A DNA stretch of 32,878 nt from Candidatus Staskawiczbacteria bacterium (GTDB lineage Bacteria > Patescibacteriota > Minisyncoccia > Minisyncoccales > Staskawiczbacteraceae), in NCBI GenBank assembly GCA_026395175.1, contig JAPLZF010000009.1:146083-178960 (forward strand). Direction: 5' to 3'. The translations under genes and the position numbers were made by a program. Numbering within the stretch: the stretch's first letter is position 1; each line of letters begins with the position of its first letter. The notes beneath the pieces were generated by a model. It did no database searches. It was not told where the DNA came from and saw only the letters and a list, made by a program, of their open reading frames with translations. Of this stretch, positions 6,127 through 26,134 are shown one piece after another.

Positions 6127-7059
6127 TTATATCTCGGCCAAAAACAAATCTAGCGCCAATTCCGGTTCAATCTTTCCCGACTTTACATCTAAATCTACCT
6201 GAAAAATCTTATGGTAGATTTTTTTTAGTTGGTCAATGCTAAACTGGTTGCACAGCCCAAAGCTCTTTTGGACCACAAAAGGATGAAGTCCGGATTTTTT
6301 TGCAATCTGCCCATACGGCTGGGTACTTTGCAGTTCCTTAATAATCAATAAGTTTCTAAATTGATAGGCAATCATTGTCAGCAAATAAAGGGAATTGTCG
6401 CCGTTATCCAAGTGCTTATGCAGTAAAGACAAGGCCAGCTTTTTATTTTTTGAAGCCAACGCATCTATGGTTTTAAAAATATCATTTTCAACATTTGGCT
6501 TCACCAGTAGCTCAACATCTTGGTGCGTTATTGTACCGCCTACTTTATAACTTGATAACTTTTTAACTTCGTTGGTCATCTGCCACAAATCATTCCCGAC
6601 AAAACTAATAAGCAAGTCTAAAGCATCGGAATTTATTTTTGCATTATTTTTTTCAAATTCTTGAGCCACCCATTTTTTAAGTGTAATGGGGGACAGGCAT
6701 TCAAACTCTTGGCACTTCACATTTTTTTGTAATGCCTTAAAAAATTTAGTTCTTTTATCTGCCGTGCAATCTTCATAAACAACAACAATGTCTTTTGAGT
6801 TTTCCAAGCTTTTTATGTTTTCTGAAAATTCTTCGCAAAATTTTATATCAGAAAAAACATTTTTTAAAATTATCAATTTCTTTTCTGCAAACATAGAAGT
6901 AATTTTAAGATTGCAATAAAAATCATCAAACTTTTTCTGCTTTGCATCAACATAAATTAAATTTAGTCCGGACTTATGGATTTTTTTGTAACCTAAAATT
7001 ATCTCTTCTAATTTCCTTTTTGACCTAAATGAATCTTGTCCGTAAATAAAATAAATCAT
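6127..7059 (-). CDS. holA: DNA polymerase III subunit delta
   Basis: The delta subunit is the wrench of the clamp loader that opens the DnaN ring during replication. The 310-aa protein starts MIYFIYGQDSFRSKRKLEEI, matching the usual HolA opening (structure-like FLYGEDxFLxxxxLxxI), with a middle segment containing CLSPITLKKWVAQEF and LDLLISFVGNDLWQMTNEVKKLSSY, typical of the second domain, and a C-terminal helical collar domain with LALSLLHKHLDNGDNSLYLL and the final LALDLFLAEI. Its ATG overlaps the UGA of the upstream 123-aa gene by four bases (ATGA), which indicates translational coupling. HolA is a fast-evolving family, so the call rests on length and the N-terminal and C-terminal patterns. 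Confidence 0.88.
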   Translation of the reverse strand: MIYFIYGQDSFRSKRKLEEIILGYKKIHKSGLNLIYVDAKQKKFDDFYCNLKITSMFAEKKLIILKNVFSDIKFCEEFSENIKSLENSKDIVVVYEDCTADKRTKFFKALQKNVKCQEFECLSPITLKKWVAQEFEKNNAKINSDALDLLISFVGNDLWQMTNEVKKLSSYKVGGTITHQDVELLVKPNVENDIFKTIDALASKNKKLALSLLHKHLDNGDNSLYLLTMIAYQFRNLLIIKELQSTQPYGQIAKKSGLHPFVVQKSFGLCNQFSIDQLKKIYHKIFQVDLDVKSGKIEPELALDLFLAEI

Positions 7060-7427: not shown

Positions 7428-7480
7428 ATTTTTATTTTTTAATTATAATTTTTACTGGTTGACCACAAATTTTGTAGGAT

Positions 7481-7505
7481 TTGTAGGACTTCCGATGTCC
7501 TACAA
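7481..7505 (-). repeat. REP-like hairpin repeat, copy A (downstream of the transposase)
   Basis: A perfect 9-bp inverted repeat, TTGTAGGAC and GTCCTACAA, with a seven-base loop, lies two bases beyond the transposase stop codon. On the minus strand its left half AATTGTAGGAC and the later GAAGTC and CAA are shared with copies B and C, which point the other way. A partial extra TTGTAGGA sits just beside it at about 7472-7479. It lacks a T tract, so it is not a normal terminator. Confidence 0.8.
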
Positions 7506-7507
7506 TT

Positions 7508-8236
7508 TTATTCTTCTAAAAACAAACCTCTGTTTTGAGCAATGTTGTTTTTGTACTCTAACCAATTTTTAATAGCGTCTCTACACCCTCCCGCTTCACT
7601 CATAGATTCAAATAAAAAATTTCTTTCAGTTACAGATGAAAAATTCTTTTTCCCAATATAATCTTGATAACTCGACCACTTATAATTTTCTAAAAATTCA
7701 ATTGATTTATCAATATCACTAATTCCTTTTTCTTTCCATCCCGGCTCGTATAGAGAAAGGGGATTAACATGAATATAATTAAAAACAGTCATAAGCTGAT
7801 TGTCATTTTCTACACTGACCGATTTAAACGCATCCTGAAAAACATGTCCTTTTCTTTGATACTTTTTATTAAAATATTTACTTAGGCCAATACCAACTTT
7901 TTGCATAAATTTTGAAACACCGCCATCTTTTATTTGTTTTACTAAGAGATGTATATGATTTGGCATAAAGCAGAAGGCTAATACTTCCACAAATTTATCT
8001 CGCTCATCTAAAATTGTAGGACTCCCGAAGTCGCTCAATTTTTCTCTTTTCTTTTCAACTTTACGATCTCGTCGTCTAATAAAGATAGTTACGGGCTTAG
8101 AATTATTAAATTCGTAAATTGAAAAAATTCCACGAAAATAATCATTAGTGTTTTTAAAAATCAAATTGTCATCAAGCGCCCGCATAACAATGTGATAAAT
8201 ATCTCCTGTTATAAATTGTTCTTTTCTTCTTGGCAT
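7508..8236 (-). CDS. REP-associated tyrosine transposase (Y1/HUH, IS200-like family)
   Basis: Transposases of this family nick single-stranded DNA with one tyrosine and a His-x-His metal site, and the RAYT branch acts on short palindromic repeats. The 242-aa protein begins MPRRKEQFITGDIYHIVMRA, has the HUH motif MPNHIHLLV (H94, H96) and the pattern VFNYIHVNP with the likely catalytic Tyr154, plus GHVFQDAFKS between them. I start at the ATG at 8236, not the upstream frame extension at 8260, because the extension is encoded by the repeat copy C. A second repeat copy (B) lies inside the gene and encodes about residues 64-76, so the loop before the HUH motif is longer than usual. Flanking and internal repeats in both orientations support a RAYT rather than a classical IS element; no subterminal IS200 ends were identified. 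Confidence 0.88.
   Translation of the reverse strand: MPRRKEQFITGDIYHIVMRALDDNLIFKNTNDYFRGIFSIYEFNNSKPVTIFIRRRDRKVEKKREKLSDFGSPTILDERDKFVEVLAFCFMPNHIHLLVKQIKDGGVSKFMQKVGIGLSKYFNKKYQRKGHVFQDAFKSVSVENDNQLMTVFNYIHVNPLSLYEPGWKEKGISDIDKSIEFLENYKWSSYQDYIGKKNFSSVTERNFLFESMSEAGGCRDAIKNWLEYKNNIAQNRGLFLEE
8012..8045 (+). repeat. REP-like repeat, copy B, in frame inside the transposase gene
   Basis: The first 32 bases are identical to copy C except for one base (G at 8033 instead of A), and include the core TTGTAGGACTCCCGAAGTC. It lies inside the transposase coding sequence and contributes residues reading LSDFGSPTI on the minus strand without breaking the frame. The core GACT/AGTC can pair; the lower stem has three mismatches compared with copy A. 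Confidence 0.85.
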
Positions 8237-8237
8237 A

Positions 8238-8270
8238 AATTGTAGGACTCCCGAAGTCACTCAATTTTTT
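8238..8270 (+). repeat. REP-like repeat, copy C, between mutM and the transposase
   Basis: This repeat fills the whole 32-base gap between the mutM stop and the transposase ATG. It shares AATTGTAGGACTCCCGAAGT and the following CTCAATTTTT with copy B. With copy A on the far side in the opposite orientation, the gene is bracketed by inverted copies. Confidence 0.85.
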
Positions 8271-9177
8271 ATAATTTCTGGCAGTTAGGGCAATAAAATG
8301 CGCTTCTGCCGGCAAATTTTATTCTTTTAATTTTTGCTTTTTTGCACCTTTTGCAAAGTTGATTTTCTCTTTTATATACTTTTCTTTCTGTGTCGAAATC
8401 TCCTTTTGTGCCGTCTGGTTTTCTGTAATCTGAAAAGCTTTCTCCGCCAAGCTTTACAGCCAGTGCCAAAACCTTTCTTATGGCTTGGTAAAGCAATTCT
8501 AACTCTTTTCCACTCAACTTTGCAACACTTTTTTCAGGATGTATTTTTGCCTGCCACAAAGCTTCAGAAGCATAAATGTTTCCAATGCCGGCAATTACAC
8601 TTGGGTCCATAATTACTTGTTTTACTTTGCCCTGCCGAAGCGGGGTACCCTTTGGGTCTGAAGGCGGGCTCGGCCGCAACAATGCTTTTTTAAATTTTGA
8701 AAATGTAAAAGATTTTTCCAATGGTTCTGGCCCCAATTTTTCAAAATCTTTTAACAAATCATCTGTTTTCCATAATTCAACTTTGGCAAATTTTCTGGCA
8801 TCGGAAAGAGCAAGCATTTTTTTATTATCAAGAAAAAATATCAAATGCAAAAATCTGTTGTATGGGTCATTTAACGGTCCCGACTCGGTCGGGACCCAAT
8901 TCCCAATTTTCAATTCCCAATTCCCAACTAATAAATGTCCTGTCATTTTTTGATGAACCAAAAGCGAATAATTTTCAGACAAATCAAAAATGATATTTTT
9001 TGCCCGTCGCCAAACCTTTTTTATTTTTTTATTTTTTATTTCTTTTTTAAACTGCTCAAAATCTTTTGGTTTTTTTACAAGCTTTTTCCAGTCAGACCAA
9101 ACATCAACAAAGGCCCTTTTAAGGACCTTTTGTTTTAAACCGTCTACTGTTGTTTGTACTTCTGGGAGCTCGGGCAT
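8269..9177 (-). CDS. mutM: Formamidopyrimidine-DNA glycosylase (Fpg/MutM)
   Basis: MutM removes oxidised purines such as 8-oxoguanine and cuts the abasic site. The 302-aa protein begins MPELPEVQTTVDGL with the catalytic Pro2 and Glu3, has the Lys in HQKMTGHL (residue 78), the helix-two-turn-helix around MDPSVIAGIGNIYASEALW (190-208) and a C-terminal zinc finger with C275, C278, C296 and C299. All catalytic features are present, so it should be active. Two odd stretches interrupt it: residues 168-183 are encoded by a very GC-rich palindromic element, and residues about 84-102 by a second palindrome plus short CAATTCCCAA repeats; both fall in loops. It is 10 bases downstream of the HAMP gene and 30 upstream of the transposase. 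Confidence 0.95.
   Translation of the reverse strand: MPELPEVQTTVDGLKQKVLKRAFVDVWSDWKKLVKKPKDFEQFKKEIKNKKIKKVWRRAKNIIFDLSENYSLLVHQKMTGHLLVGNWELKIGNWVPTESGPLNDPYNRFLHLIFFLDNKKMLALSDARKFAKVELWKTDDLLKDFEKLGPEPLEKSFTFSKFKKALLRPSPPSDPKGTPLRQGKVKQVIMDPSVIAGIGNIYASEALWQAKIHPEKSVAKLSGKELELLYQAIRKVLALAVKLGGESFSDYRKPDGTKGDFDTERKVYKRENQLCKRCKKAKIKRIKFAGRSAFYCPNCQKL
8629..8676 (-). repeat. GC-rich palindromic element inserted in frame in mutM
   Basis: This 48-base stretch encodes MutM residues 168-183 (RPSPPSDPKGTPLRQG) and is roughly 70% GC inside an AT-rich gene. It contains perfect inverted repeats ACCC-TTT-GGGT (8647-8657) and GGGTACCC (8643-8650). Normal Fpg proteins go straight from the preceding helix to the K(V/I)KQxxMDxSxxAGIGNIY block, so the segment is extra. 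The length is a multiple of three. Confidence 0.75.
8876..8896. repeat. Perfect palindrome inside mutM
   Basis: GGTCCCGAC (8876-8884) and GTCGGGACC (8888-8896) form a 9-bp stem with a three-base TCG loop. It is followed by repeated CAATTCCCAA-like units to about 8928. Together they encode the Trp/Pro-rich insertion after HLLVGNW. Confidence 0.7.
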
Positions 9178-10612: not shown

Positions 10613-13600
10613 TTATTGATGAACCGCTGTATTTGATGACCAAATCACCTTGCCGGCTGTATCATAAATCACAAGATTACCATCTGGTTGCACATACAAA
10701 CCGCCGGCTGGCGTTCCAAATTTCATCGTAGCCCATAATGCTTTGCGGATAGTTGAATCAAGAGAATCATAAATCACAAGATTGCCGTCTGATTGCATAG
10801 TAAGCTTTGCCGAAGTTTTGCCAGCTGTATTCGTTGTATTGGAAGCCCATAAAACTTTATTAGAAACATTATAGAGCACTGCATTGCCGTCTTTTTGGAG
10901 GGTTAGTCTATATGTTCCATTACAAGACATGACAGACTGCCCAGGGGTAAGCGACGATCCAATACGAAGTATTCCACATTCAGCCACGCTAAAATAATTA
11001 TCCGATGAGTCATAAACTGATTTGTTATCGGCGTCAGTTATTTTTATCTTGAAATTATTGCCGCCAACCATGCTACTTGGGATGCTTGGATAATTGTAGG
11101 AACCAATATTGTCAGCCAATAAACTTATCATTATAAAAGGTGAATCATTTTTAGTAATTTCAATAGAAATCTTTGAAGATACTCCTGCAGATTTCCATGT
11201 AATTGGAATTGACTGATTTGAAGAAAACGTTTCTCCTCCATTTGGTGAAGTAACGGTAACGGGCGACCTACAATCATAACACCCTGTATGTTGGGAGTCG
11301 TGTTGCAACATCGGCCAATCCATCAATGATGAATCATAAAAAGCATATAGTCCAAAAATATAAATAAATTTTGAAGAAGTGGCTATTAGCTCTGTTTTAC
11401 CATCACCGTTAACATCAGATAGAATCATTGTTCCATTAGAAGGTGAATCTATTTTTTTAGGAAATCCACTAATAGGAGACCCGTTTAGATCATAGGCATA
11501 AATATTATTAGTTTGAGAAGAATTAACAACAATATCTTCTCCAATTCCGTTGTCTATATTAGCTATAAGAGGATCTCCATCAAGGAGGCCAGGCTCTGCA
11601 GGAATAGGAAAATTAGGTAATGGTTTCCCTATACGATCAACCAACTGTAAATTCCCAAGCCAATCGCTGTAAGCTATTTCTGGATAACCATCTTTATTAA
11701 TATCTCCAATTGCAAATCTTGAGATAACGCTGTCGTATTCCGTTCCATTATAAGTATACCTTTGATTAGTCCACCCGCTAAGATTGCTTCCATCGCCGTT
11801 AAGCGCATACCCATGATCGAATATTTCATATTTCCCGTCATTATTAATATCGGCTGAAGCTAACGACCAATTCCAAAGTTCATTGTTATGAAGAAAAATT
11901 TTATTGCCCTTATAGTCAAATGCCTCAACGGCACCACCTGTAAGATCTATTTTAATTAATCCACAAATAATTTCTTTATATCCATCATTGTTGATATCTG
12001 ATAAAACAGGTTCGCTTCTTGGCAGATAATTATTTGGAACACTAACTGGCCAGCCAGATAAAATTTTGCCTTTATAGTTAAATGCATATATTTTCGTTCC
12101 AACGTTGCCAGTTGACATCCCTGTTCCAACGATTATTTCATTATATCCATCATTATTAATATCACCTATGCTTGCCATCTGGGGTGCGTCGCCGGTGATT
12201 GGATCAATTATTTGAGGCCAGCCATTGAGTTCTGTACCGTCTGATGCAAAAACATGTACCCTGCTGTAAGGCCCGGCGGGATTTGTACTTTCGATAACAA
12301 TTATTTCTTTTTTTCCATCATTATTTATATCACTAACAAGTATACTCTTGACGGGCCATCCGATTAATTTCGGCCAGCTTGCAGAAAACTGTTTTCCCGT
12401 ATAATTAAGAATATTTAAAGATACATAGTTAGAGGAGTCATAATAGGAATAAATTATTTCTTGTTTTCCATCATTATTTAAATCGGCAACAGCTATTTTT
12501 GTAAGAGAATCACTCTCAATCGGCCATCCATCTAAAATATTTGGGTCGTGGACTAAACTCACATTCAAATTTGCGGTTGATCCTTCTTGAATATTTACAT
12601 TTAATATTACATCTGAGTATCCTGTTTTACTCACTTTAATTGTTCTACCGCCAATATTTAAACTTGTAGTCAATGGTGTCTGGCCACGATAAATATAATT
12701 GCCAATAGCCAGATCTTTAATATAGACATCTGCTCCGCTGATATTTGATATTATAGAAAGAATGCCGATTTTATTAGACGATATACCACAATTATCATTA
12801 TTAAGGATTTTAGAACTATCATCGCAATCTTCTATTATCTGATCTTTACAAGAATTCGGACATCCAATAGCTGGTTTTGGTCCAATGCCCCAATAACAGA
12901 ATTTATCCATATCATTATCAGTACAAATAACTGATTGTGAAGTTGGCGATTTTGGTCCATCAACTACAAAAGCATACCAGGAACTGATGTTTGAATCATC
13001 GGCATAAATTCTGAAATAACCGTTCTCACCCCAAGCAGTTCCCCAACTGTTTTTGACAATCCAATAGTCACGACCATCATTTTTACCAAAACCAACGATG
13101 GTAACAGAGTGAGCTCCAGAAGCAGCAAAACCATTAATATCATGCTGATAAATTCCACTCTTATAACTAAAAAAATCAGGGTAAACATACATACCGACAT
13201 CAACCGGTCCGTTTGTAATTAATGCTTTCTTGATTTTATTAATATTATCAGCTAAATTGTCAGTTAAATCAATTCTTTTGTAGCTTAAATCTTTCCAGGC
13301 GGTTTTTTGCCAATTTATCAATTTAGCTGAACAGGGAGTATCAGTGGTCGAGTAGGGAAAAGAGCTTTCAACGGCATTGCCGGTATTGACCCAATATGTT
13401 TTGAAAATAGTTTCAATTTGGTAATCATAAGCGCCTGAGCAGCCACCAACCCCATCACTGGAATAAGGAATAGCGCAAGAAACTAAATCTTGCTCAGCCA
13501 AATTAGGAATTAAATTTGGGTTATTGTAATAAGCCTGAATATGGCCTTCAAAAGTAGCATCTGCACCGAATGCCCAGCAACTGCCACAATTACCTTGATC

Positions 13601-16613: not shown

Positions 16614-16750
16614 AAAAACGGCTCTAGAGTTGTAGGTGTTCTTATGTCTGGGACATAAACAAAGATTTATCTGAGGAATAATCGAGCCGGAGCAAGATTA
16701 TCCGAAGCTGAGATAAGTCCAAATAAATACCTCCAACTCTAGAGCCGTTT
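16612..16750 (-). ncRNA. Unidentified structured RNA-like element (~140 nt), 6S-like shape
   Basis: A 17-bp perfect outer stem (16616-16632 with 16734-16750) is extended after one mismatch by a 7-bp stem (16634-16640 with 16726-16732). Inside are a 7-bp hairpin TTATGTC/GACATAA (16642-16648, 16652-16658) and a longer arm (TTATCT/AGATAA at 16667-16672 and 16711-16716, then ATAATC/GATTAT at 16678-16683 and 16696-16701). On the plus strand only three T follow the outer stem; on the minus strand the stem is followed by seven T, as for an intrinsic terminator, so a minus-strand RNA is favoured. There, the layout (closing stem, bubble with a small hairpin on its 3' side, apical arm) resembles 6S RNA, but I see no sequence match to 6S, SRP, tmRNA or a known riboswitch. 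It fills the gap between pilB and ruvB. A palindromic mobile element is the main alternative. Confidence 0.5.
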
Positions 16751-25018: not shown

Positions 25019-26134
25019 TTAATCAGAAGTCGAGCACCAGACATCATTTTTCCATGTCCAATTTTTATCCATGCCGGCCATGATGCAAATTTTGTTTTTA
25101 AAAACCACTGCGCCAACATCTTCCCTGCCAGTCCAAAGAGGATCTTTTTCTGTTTTCTGCCAATTTTTGCCGTCTTCTGAATACCAGACATCGTTCGCAC
25201 CATTTCCATATAAAGGTACATTTAATCTGCTCACAACCCAAAGCCTGTTTTGATAATCAATCAACGCAAATCCCTGGCGCGTTTCAAAAGGAGGATTTTC
25301 ATTTGCCAATGTCCAATTCACGCCGTCTGAAGAAGACCAAACATCATTATAAAGCTTGTCTTTAAAAGCCATTCCGCCCACCACCCATAATTTATTGTTA
25401 AAAACTTCAGCCGCAAAATCCCACCTTGGAGACCACTCTGCATTTTTAACAGCTTGCTTCCAGCTGACTCCATCGTCTGAATACCAAACATCATTAAAAA
25501 GCTGGTTTCCTGTATATTTTACTCCGCCAATAAGCCATATCTTATTTTGAAAAACCAAAAGCTGATGCCCTTCTCTGGCAGGCCAGGCGGTGGATTTTGT
25601 TTCTAATTCCCAATTTTTTCCGTCTTCTGACGACCAAACATCGCTTCTGTAGCCAATATCCGGACCCCATCCGCCCATCAGCCACATTTTACCCTTAAAA
25701 TCAACAACCGCCATAGACCTCCTGTTTCCCCATGGAGCATTATTTAAAACAAGCTGCCAATTTTTGCCGTCTTCTGACGACCAAACATCGCTAAAATGCG
25801 GCGCATTTCCATAATCTACATTCCCAGGGGAAATAAGGCGTTTAGTTCCGTCTAACCCGCCCATCAGCCATATTTTATTTTTATAGACAACTACCGCTTG
25901 AGAATCCCTGCCTTCCCATGGAGCTGAAGAAACAACTTCTTCCCAATCTAATGAAGCGGGATGAAATGACGGATTGGGAAGTGTTTCAGCCGGTTCTTCT
26001 GTTATATTTTTTTGATTATTATTAATTAATTCTGTCGCGCTTTCTTTTTTATAATATACAAAAACTGCTCCGCCGATTGCGATTATTATAATTAAAATAA
26101 ATAAAATTATTAAGATCAAATTATTTCTTTTCAT
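25019..26134 (-). CDS. Membrane-anchored six-bladed Kelch-like propeller protein
   Basis: The 371-aa protein has an N-terminal membrane helix (about 5-28) and then six repeats of about 50 residues, each with the pattern DVWSS(E/D)DGxxWxxxxxxxxWxxRxxxxxxxFxxKxWxxGG. The Gly-Gly pair and following aromatic residues are typical of Kelch blades, while SxDGxxW resembles BNR/Asp-box turns. The sequence ends with a seventh partial strand DVWCSTSD, which would close the ring. Blade-like extracellular propellers serve in binding glycans or proteins, but the ligand cannot be read from the sequence. It is ten bases downstream of dnaN in the same orientation, though functionally unrelated. Confidence 0.85.
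   Translation of the reverse strand: MKRNNLILIILFILIIIIAIGGAVFVYYKKESATELINNNQKNITEEPAETLPNPSFHPASLDWEEVVSSAPWEGRDSQAVVVYKNKIWLMGGLDGTKRLISPGNVDYGNAPHFSDVWSSEDGKNWQLVLNNAPWGNRRSMAVVDFKGKMWLMGGWGPDIGYRSDVWSSEDGKNWELETKSTAWPAREGHQLLVFQNKIWLIGGVKYTGNQLFNDVWYSDDGVSWKQAVKNAEWSPRWDFAAEVFNNKLWVVGGMAFKDKLYNDVWSSSDGVNWTLANENPPFETRQGFALIDYQNRLWVVSRLNVPLYGNGANDVWYSEDGKNWQKTEKDPLWTGREDVGAVVFKNKICIMAGMDKNWTWKNDVWCSTSD

Follow-up and report, generated by a model that had tools for sequence, protein, structure and literature searches.

We found that a 32,878-nt stretch of a Candidatus Staskawiczbacteria genome (hereafter, the window) carries a REPtron-like element, in which a RAYT gene has a cognate REP just ahead of its start codon, another just behind its stop codon and a third lying in frame within the coding sequence. 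In this RAYT lineage the internal REP is a regular component: it sits mostly in one of two loops, its hairpin is kept, and it mostly matches the REP currently found at its own locus. A REP that lies inside a RAYT gene without breaking the frame is of an already known kind, described in PMC6006769. Our best reading of the sequence comparisons, to which we give about an even chance, is that the internal copy occupies a tolerated, resident site for REPs, which RAYT activity would overwrite again and again (self-targeting).

In the window, the RAYT gene (a TnpAREP-like Y1/HUH transposase of 242 aa) occupies positions 7508-8236 of the minus strand, between mutM/fpg (8269-9177, minus strand) upstream and holA, encoding DNA polymerase III delta, downstream (6127-7059, minus strand); both neighbours were identified with Pfam and are conserved in synteny, mutM in six genomes. 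The alignment places the RAYT start at the ATG at 8236 and the stop codon at 7508-7510; the mechanical open reading frame start (GTG at 8260) was rejected, as it lies inside the 5' REP. With this start, the 5' REP (copy C; 8238-8269, plus strand) falls in the 32 nt that separate the stop of mutM from the start of the RAYT, which leaves copy B (8012-8043, plus strand) as the only one inside the coding sequence; it encodes approximately residues 65-75 (KLSDFGSPTIL) of the loop preceding the HUH strand. Copies B and C share a single-foot layout (GTAG-hairpin-RCTC, with GTAG on the plus strand) and, as the initial annotation had observed, differ by one base over 32. Copy A (7481-7505) has the symmetric double-foot form GTAG...CTAC, a perfect palindrome with a 9-bp stem and a 7-nt loop that begins 2 nt past the stop codon; the perfect pairing and the position claimed for it earlier were borne out, but its description as inverted was not, given that the symmetric form leaves its strand ambiguous. 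A half-copy, TTGTAGGA (7473-7480, plus strand), directly adjoins it. All three copies fold as single-stranded DNA hairpins with z-scores of -3.3 to -5.7 (C, -3.3 to -3.7; B, -3.5; A, -4.3/-5.7), and the hairpins are strong on both strands. The 19-nt REP pattern has four matches in the window (copy A being counted on both strands) against 0.02 expected, and at up to one mismatch it is found in the 744-kb genome at 9 distinct places, and a reversed-pattern control has no matches; these counts exclude a chance origin of the window's REP copies. The further copies that the initial annotation had predicted thus exist, though they are mostly single and not in the inverted pairs it had expected.

The protein matches Pfam Y1_Tnp (E 9e-13), and its sole matching family in the NCBIfam library is NF047646, at 47.5 bits and below a cut-off of 80 that is a name-transfer threshold rather than a biological feature; we call it RAYT-like rather than an NF047646 equivalog. 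An AlphaFold model built from 28 relatives had a mean pLDDT of 87, and its best Foldseek match was 4er8, the E. coli TnpAREP bound to a REP hairpin. The Y1/HUH fold of the RAYT/TnpAREP family is present together with the HUH motif N93-H94-I95-H96 (7949-7960, minus strand; N93, H94 and H96 invariant in alignment A1) and the putative catalytic Y154 of the YIHVNP motif (7775-7777, minus strand), which, like H94 and H96, is invariant among the aligned relatives. Also present are the flanking cognate palindromes that recur elsewhere in the genome (copies A and C plus the dispersed copies). The loop encoded by copy B (residues 68-82 in the model) lies between a helix and the strand ahead of HUH and has lower model confidence. 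The initial annotation correctly placed copy B inside the transposase coding sequence, but its proposal that the copy adds 11-13 extra residues found no support, as the motif-to-HUH distance has a median of 47.5 aa in genes with the REP compared with 42-58 aa in four relatives without it.

The closest described arrangement is that of subclass 2.4 (RAYT group 4), of which frame-keeping REP insertions in tnpAREP are reported by Quentin et al. 2018 to be a unique feature (PMC6006769). In that report the insertions generally lie between HuH and Y, in a peripheral variable region where they are probably harmless; the proteins have WQ and YIxNNP motifs, ~194 aa, an enlarged core and no SS extension; and some subclass 2.8 genes also contain a REP. 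By comparison, our element shares the flanking REPs, the in-frame REP in the RAYT gene and the double-foot GT[AG]G...C[TC]AC REPs, but its insertions lie before HuH or after Y, and its proteins have ~240 aa, FQ, YIHxNP, SS after Y and normal HuH-Y spacing. Specifically, the window protein (242 aa, FQ, YIHVNP, an SS pair after Y, and a core with 61 aa from HuH to Y) shows neither WQ, nor YIxNNP, nor the ~194-aa, SS-less form, and its REP lies before HuH and not between HuH and Y. Its motifs and length agree better with subclass 2.1 (group 1), for which FQ, a Y[IV]HLNP-like motif, ~238 aa, an SS extension, an HTH-like C-terminus and an absence of REPs are reported; Pfam shows no HTH domain in the window protein. 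Judged by sequence motifs, this RAYT family thus appears to fit subclass 2.4 poorly and 2.1 better, though 2.1 is reported without REPs. The GT[AG]G foot is present in the window's REP but, on either strand, in only 7 of the 51 internal elements of relatives described below, meaning that the 2018 survey, based on GT[AG]G, would probably miss most of them.

The arrangement turned out to be far more general than the initial annotation, correct about a RAYT carrying its own target in frame, could see from one sequence. The same genome encodes another Y1 transposase, C19, for which a palindrome of different sequence, GTGGGACGTCSGACGTCCCAC, occurs on the upstream side, within the same loop (in frame) and on the downstream side. 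Relatives were found in 23 of 36 genomes of the same GTDB family, most with a locus-specific palindrome in 5', internal and 3' position. A scan of 84,980 species genomes yielded 80 loci, the majority in Patescibacteria; a few carry the labels Omnitrophota, Spirochaetia and Thermodesulfovibrionia. For the 74 loci with complete genes, we searched each coding sequence for a match of at least 16 to its own 150-nt flanks, with swapped flanks as the control, and found one at 58 of 74 loci compared with 22 of 740 controls. Seven of the 58 matches were C-terminal, were read as 3' copies overlapping the stop codon and were left out of the internal count, which leaves 51 of 74 loci with true internal copies: 41 at site 1 (the loop before HUH, centred 55-94 nt before it), 9 at site 2 (directly behind the Y motif) and 1 elsewhere. 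Among these 51, a 5' copy was present in 50, a 3' copy in 44 and all three copies in 43; the 5' copy lies a median of 16 nt ahead of the ATG, the 3' copy a median of 8 nt behind the stop codon. Compared with the 5' copy, the internal one had no consistent orientation. The in-frame REP of the window is one instance of an arrangement that recurs in Patescibacteria and in a small number of other MAGs.

It is not universal. A clade of 13 RAYT genes lacks the internal copy and has flanking REPs in most members, several of them with a 3' copy that overlaps the gene end, and several further RAYT genes outside this clade also lack it. On a quick tree the internal-copy label was clustered, requiring 11 changes for site 1 (shuffled mean 24.5) and 2 for site 2. 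The site-1 hairpin of the nine site-2 genes was absent in 5, degraded in 2, one mismatch from perfect in 1 and perfect in 1. A strict rule of exactly one internal copy was rejected: L109 has perfect copies at both sites, and L105 has a near-perfect one at site 1 as well.

What is conserved at these sites is a nucleic acid and not a peptide, given that the palindromes vary from one relative to the next and are translated in several frames. When relatives were aligned, as the initial annotation had proposed, the residues at the site were found to differ and to come from different palindromes, and each palindrome agreed with the flanks of its own gene. Peptide-level conservation or chance similarity is refuted by the different peptides in three reading phases and by the swapped-flank control, and has next to no probability; all that speaks for it are residues common within narrow clades with similar REPs. 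Pairing, on the other hand, is kept: in the nine homologous site-2 copies 99.1% of pair cells were paired and 9 of 12 pairs had changed on both sides (0 of 500 shuffles), and in 14 site-1 copies the values were 89.9% and 11 of 12. These shuffles are uncorrected for kinship and the structure was derived from the same sequences, which favours it; slid controls fall to 25-45% pairing. Stems were perfect in 38 of 51 internal copies. For subclass 2.4, neither pair covariation nor locus-wide concerted change was found reported in the available part of PMC6006769 or in a literature search that covered few subscription journals. A generic transcript hairpin acting in translation pausing, mRNA stability or termination, and unrecognised by the RAYT, would fit the strong hairpins on both strands and the T-runs that follow some 3' copies; it would not require the observed match to the locus's own flanking REP, and we consider it very unlikely. 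Separately, we asked whether REPs are optimised for open reading in six frames and set this aside as a weak effect only (mean 4.3 vs 4.0 in shuffled palindromes, P 0.03).

The kept pairing speaks for the main rival, a selected autoregulatory site, which we hold to be possible but clearly tentative. Here the RAYT would bind to the cognate hairpin of its own mRNA or coding strand and so limit its own expression or activity. The coding sequence might then double as an autoregulatory operator through which the RAYT senses the gene or transcript that encodes it, and which is rewritten when REP specificity changes. Besides the compensatory changes at both sites and the many perfect stems, this rival draws on the site-2 genes, whose mostly lost or degraded site-1 copies suggest that one copy suffices, on the 5' copy abutting the start codon, and on internal copies present where no dispersed copies were detected. 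In three genomes (G031, G037 and G048) all 3 detected copies, and in G045 both (with the contig ending just downstream), are at the RAYT locus, and three of four are in G007; these counts are bounded by mismatch limits and incomplete assemblies, such that diverged or unassembled copies could escape. The internal copy in the first four genomes is thus no spill-over from an abundant family, a point that also counts for the preferred reading. The site-2 pairing and L108 in G048, whose perfect 17-bp internal stem contrasts with the imperfect only other detected copies of that genome, look like selection on the internal hairpin and count against overwriting. However, the internal stems fall slightly short of the flanking ones in strength (9.8 vs 10.8, Wilcoxon p 0.018), which led us to reject the candidate claim that they are stronger, and autoregulation sits poorly with the 13-gene clade and the several other genes without an internal copy, and with the two perfect copies of L109.

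Evidence for the preferred reading, overwriting of a resident site, comes from the own-flank matches and internal copies counted above, from the in-frame REPs of other genes and from the orthologous locus. Six genomes (G000, G007, G010, G021, G023 and G024) have the RAYT placed between mutM and holA, with 50-66% identity to the window protein; its REP is different in each genome, yet the three copies match within each. Wholly different palindromes matched at three sites are implausible by independent point mutation, so that six orthologous loci with six REPs, each matched at three positions, call for a copying process. It is this concerted difference of all three copies that favours the self-targeting option of the two raised in the initial annotation. 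In G023, the site-1 palindrome of one RAYT (L047) is non-cognate to its own flanks, although L026, closely related to it, carries a cognate palindrome there; L069 has a different hairpin at site 1. Both L047 and L069 speak for overwriting, and the non-cognate copy of L047 speaks against autoregulation. Passive remnants, i.e., chance REP insertions by local hopping followed by drift, with neither ongoing overwriting nor selection, would accord with the loop-tolerated intragenic REPs known from PMC3733652 and PMC6006769 and with the dispersed in-frame copies seen here, but we judge them very unlikely: perfect palindromes kept over deep divergence with compensatory change already weaken this account, and so do three copies that differ together at an orthologous locus.

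Under the preferred reading, an ancestral REP would have taken over a tolerant surface loop, and RAYT action on REP hairpins (single-stranded DNA cleavage and strand transfer) would overwrite REP sites with the currently active REP. The RAYT gene would then be a resident target of its own element, subject to self-targeting and concerted evolution; a regulatory role would be unneeded but could be superimposed. Each replacement, however, would need to keep the frame, and dispersed copies are few where overwriting should be active. The REP occupies 2 to ~20 places per genome in the genomes tested.

In the same genomes, REPs also appear to have landed in frame in housekeeping-gene loops. Dispersed in-frame copies in G000 lie in ychF, a release-factor gene, an indolepyruvate oxidoreductase-like gene, argS, recR, uvrC, a tRNA-binding-domain gene, eno, tsaD, ligA and recG (names read off translations and not from family searches), with one clear intergenic copy. 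An rluD match (L013) with two mismatches was possibly due to chance and was set aside. Both REP families of G000 are found in frame within housekeeping genes (L001-L004, L009, L053-L055, L057, L060 and L061). In other genomes the dispersed copies are a mixture of intragenic and intergenic, and in densely coding genomes an in-gene location is by itself no evidence of targeting. Different palindromes occupy the ychF loop in 4 of 10 congeners and that of enolase in 2, and net length hardly changes; such turnover at fixed loops of host genes is in favour of overwriting and, as these genes have no such role, against autoregulation. The palindrome in one loop of one gene also varies by species at L143, L148 and L149 (ychF), L164 (eno) and L172 (tsaD), and REPs in argS (L004/L225) and recG (L061/L176/L219/L224) occur in distant lineages too.

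Two further systems invite comparison. Like the RAYT-REP systems (REPtrons) of Gammaproteobacteria (PMC2817692, PMC8266576), this one has cognate REP flanks, co-evolving REP and RAYT, and the fold of E. coli TnpAREP; unlike them, it has few copies, a third, internal copy and many intragenic copies. As with the Rickettsia palindromic elements, the in-frame palindromes are short and found in housekeeping genes, including repair and tRNA-related ones, whereas the CGTC/RPE elements are reported without a dedicated transposase and here the cognate RAYT is present and itself hosts the element (PMC3733652, where intragenic REPs and RPEs are described). In-frame insertion of the Rickettsia type into unrelated protein genes was found in ychF, argS, recR, eno, tsaD, ligA, uvrC and recG, and we claim no membership.

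Other repeats were also noted. In the window, mutM contains an in-frame run, RPSPPSDPKGTPLRQG (8632-8680, minus strand); LRQGSGQA-like and PAGRQG runs are found in other Patescibacteria proteins too (L158, L166), perhaps as another coding repeat family. A 25-nt inverted repeat at 16616-16750 is 92% complementary, with arms 85 nt apart, and the ~150-nt-spaced repeats within genes at 25160-25792 and 11818-12496 probably reflect repeat-domain proteins.

RAYTs are usually viewed as domesticated transposases with REP targets elsewhere. The transposase gene described here is a conserved site of its own REP, and three copies at one locus turn over together, which offers a natural system for studying how REP specificity changes and how one REP comes to be copied onto another. 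The in-frame palindromes in housekeeping genes of these reduced genomes are thereby linked to a cognate transposase.
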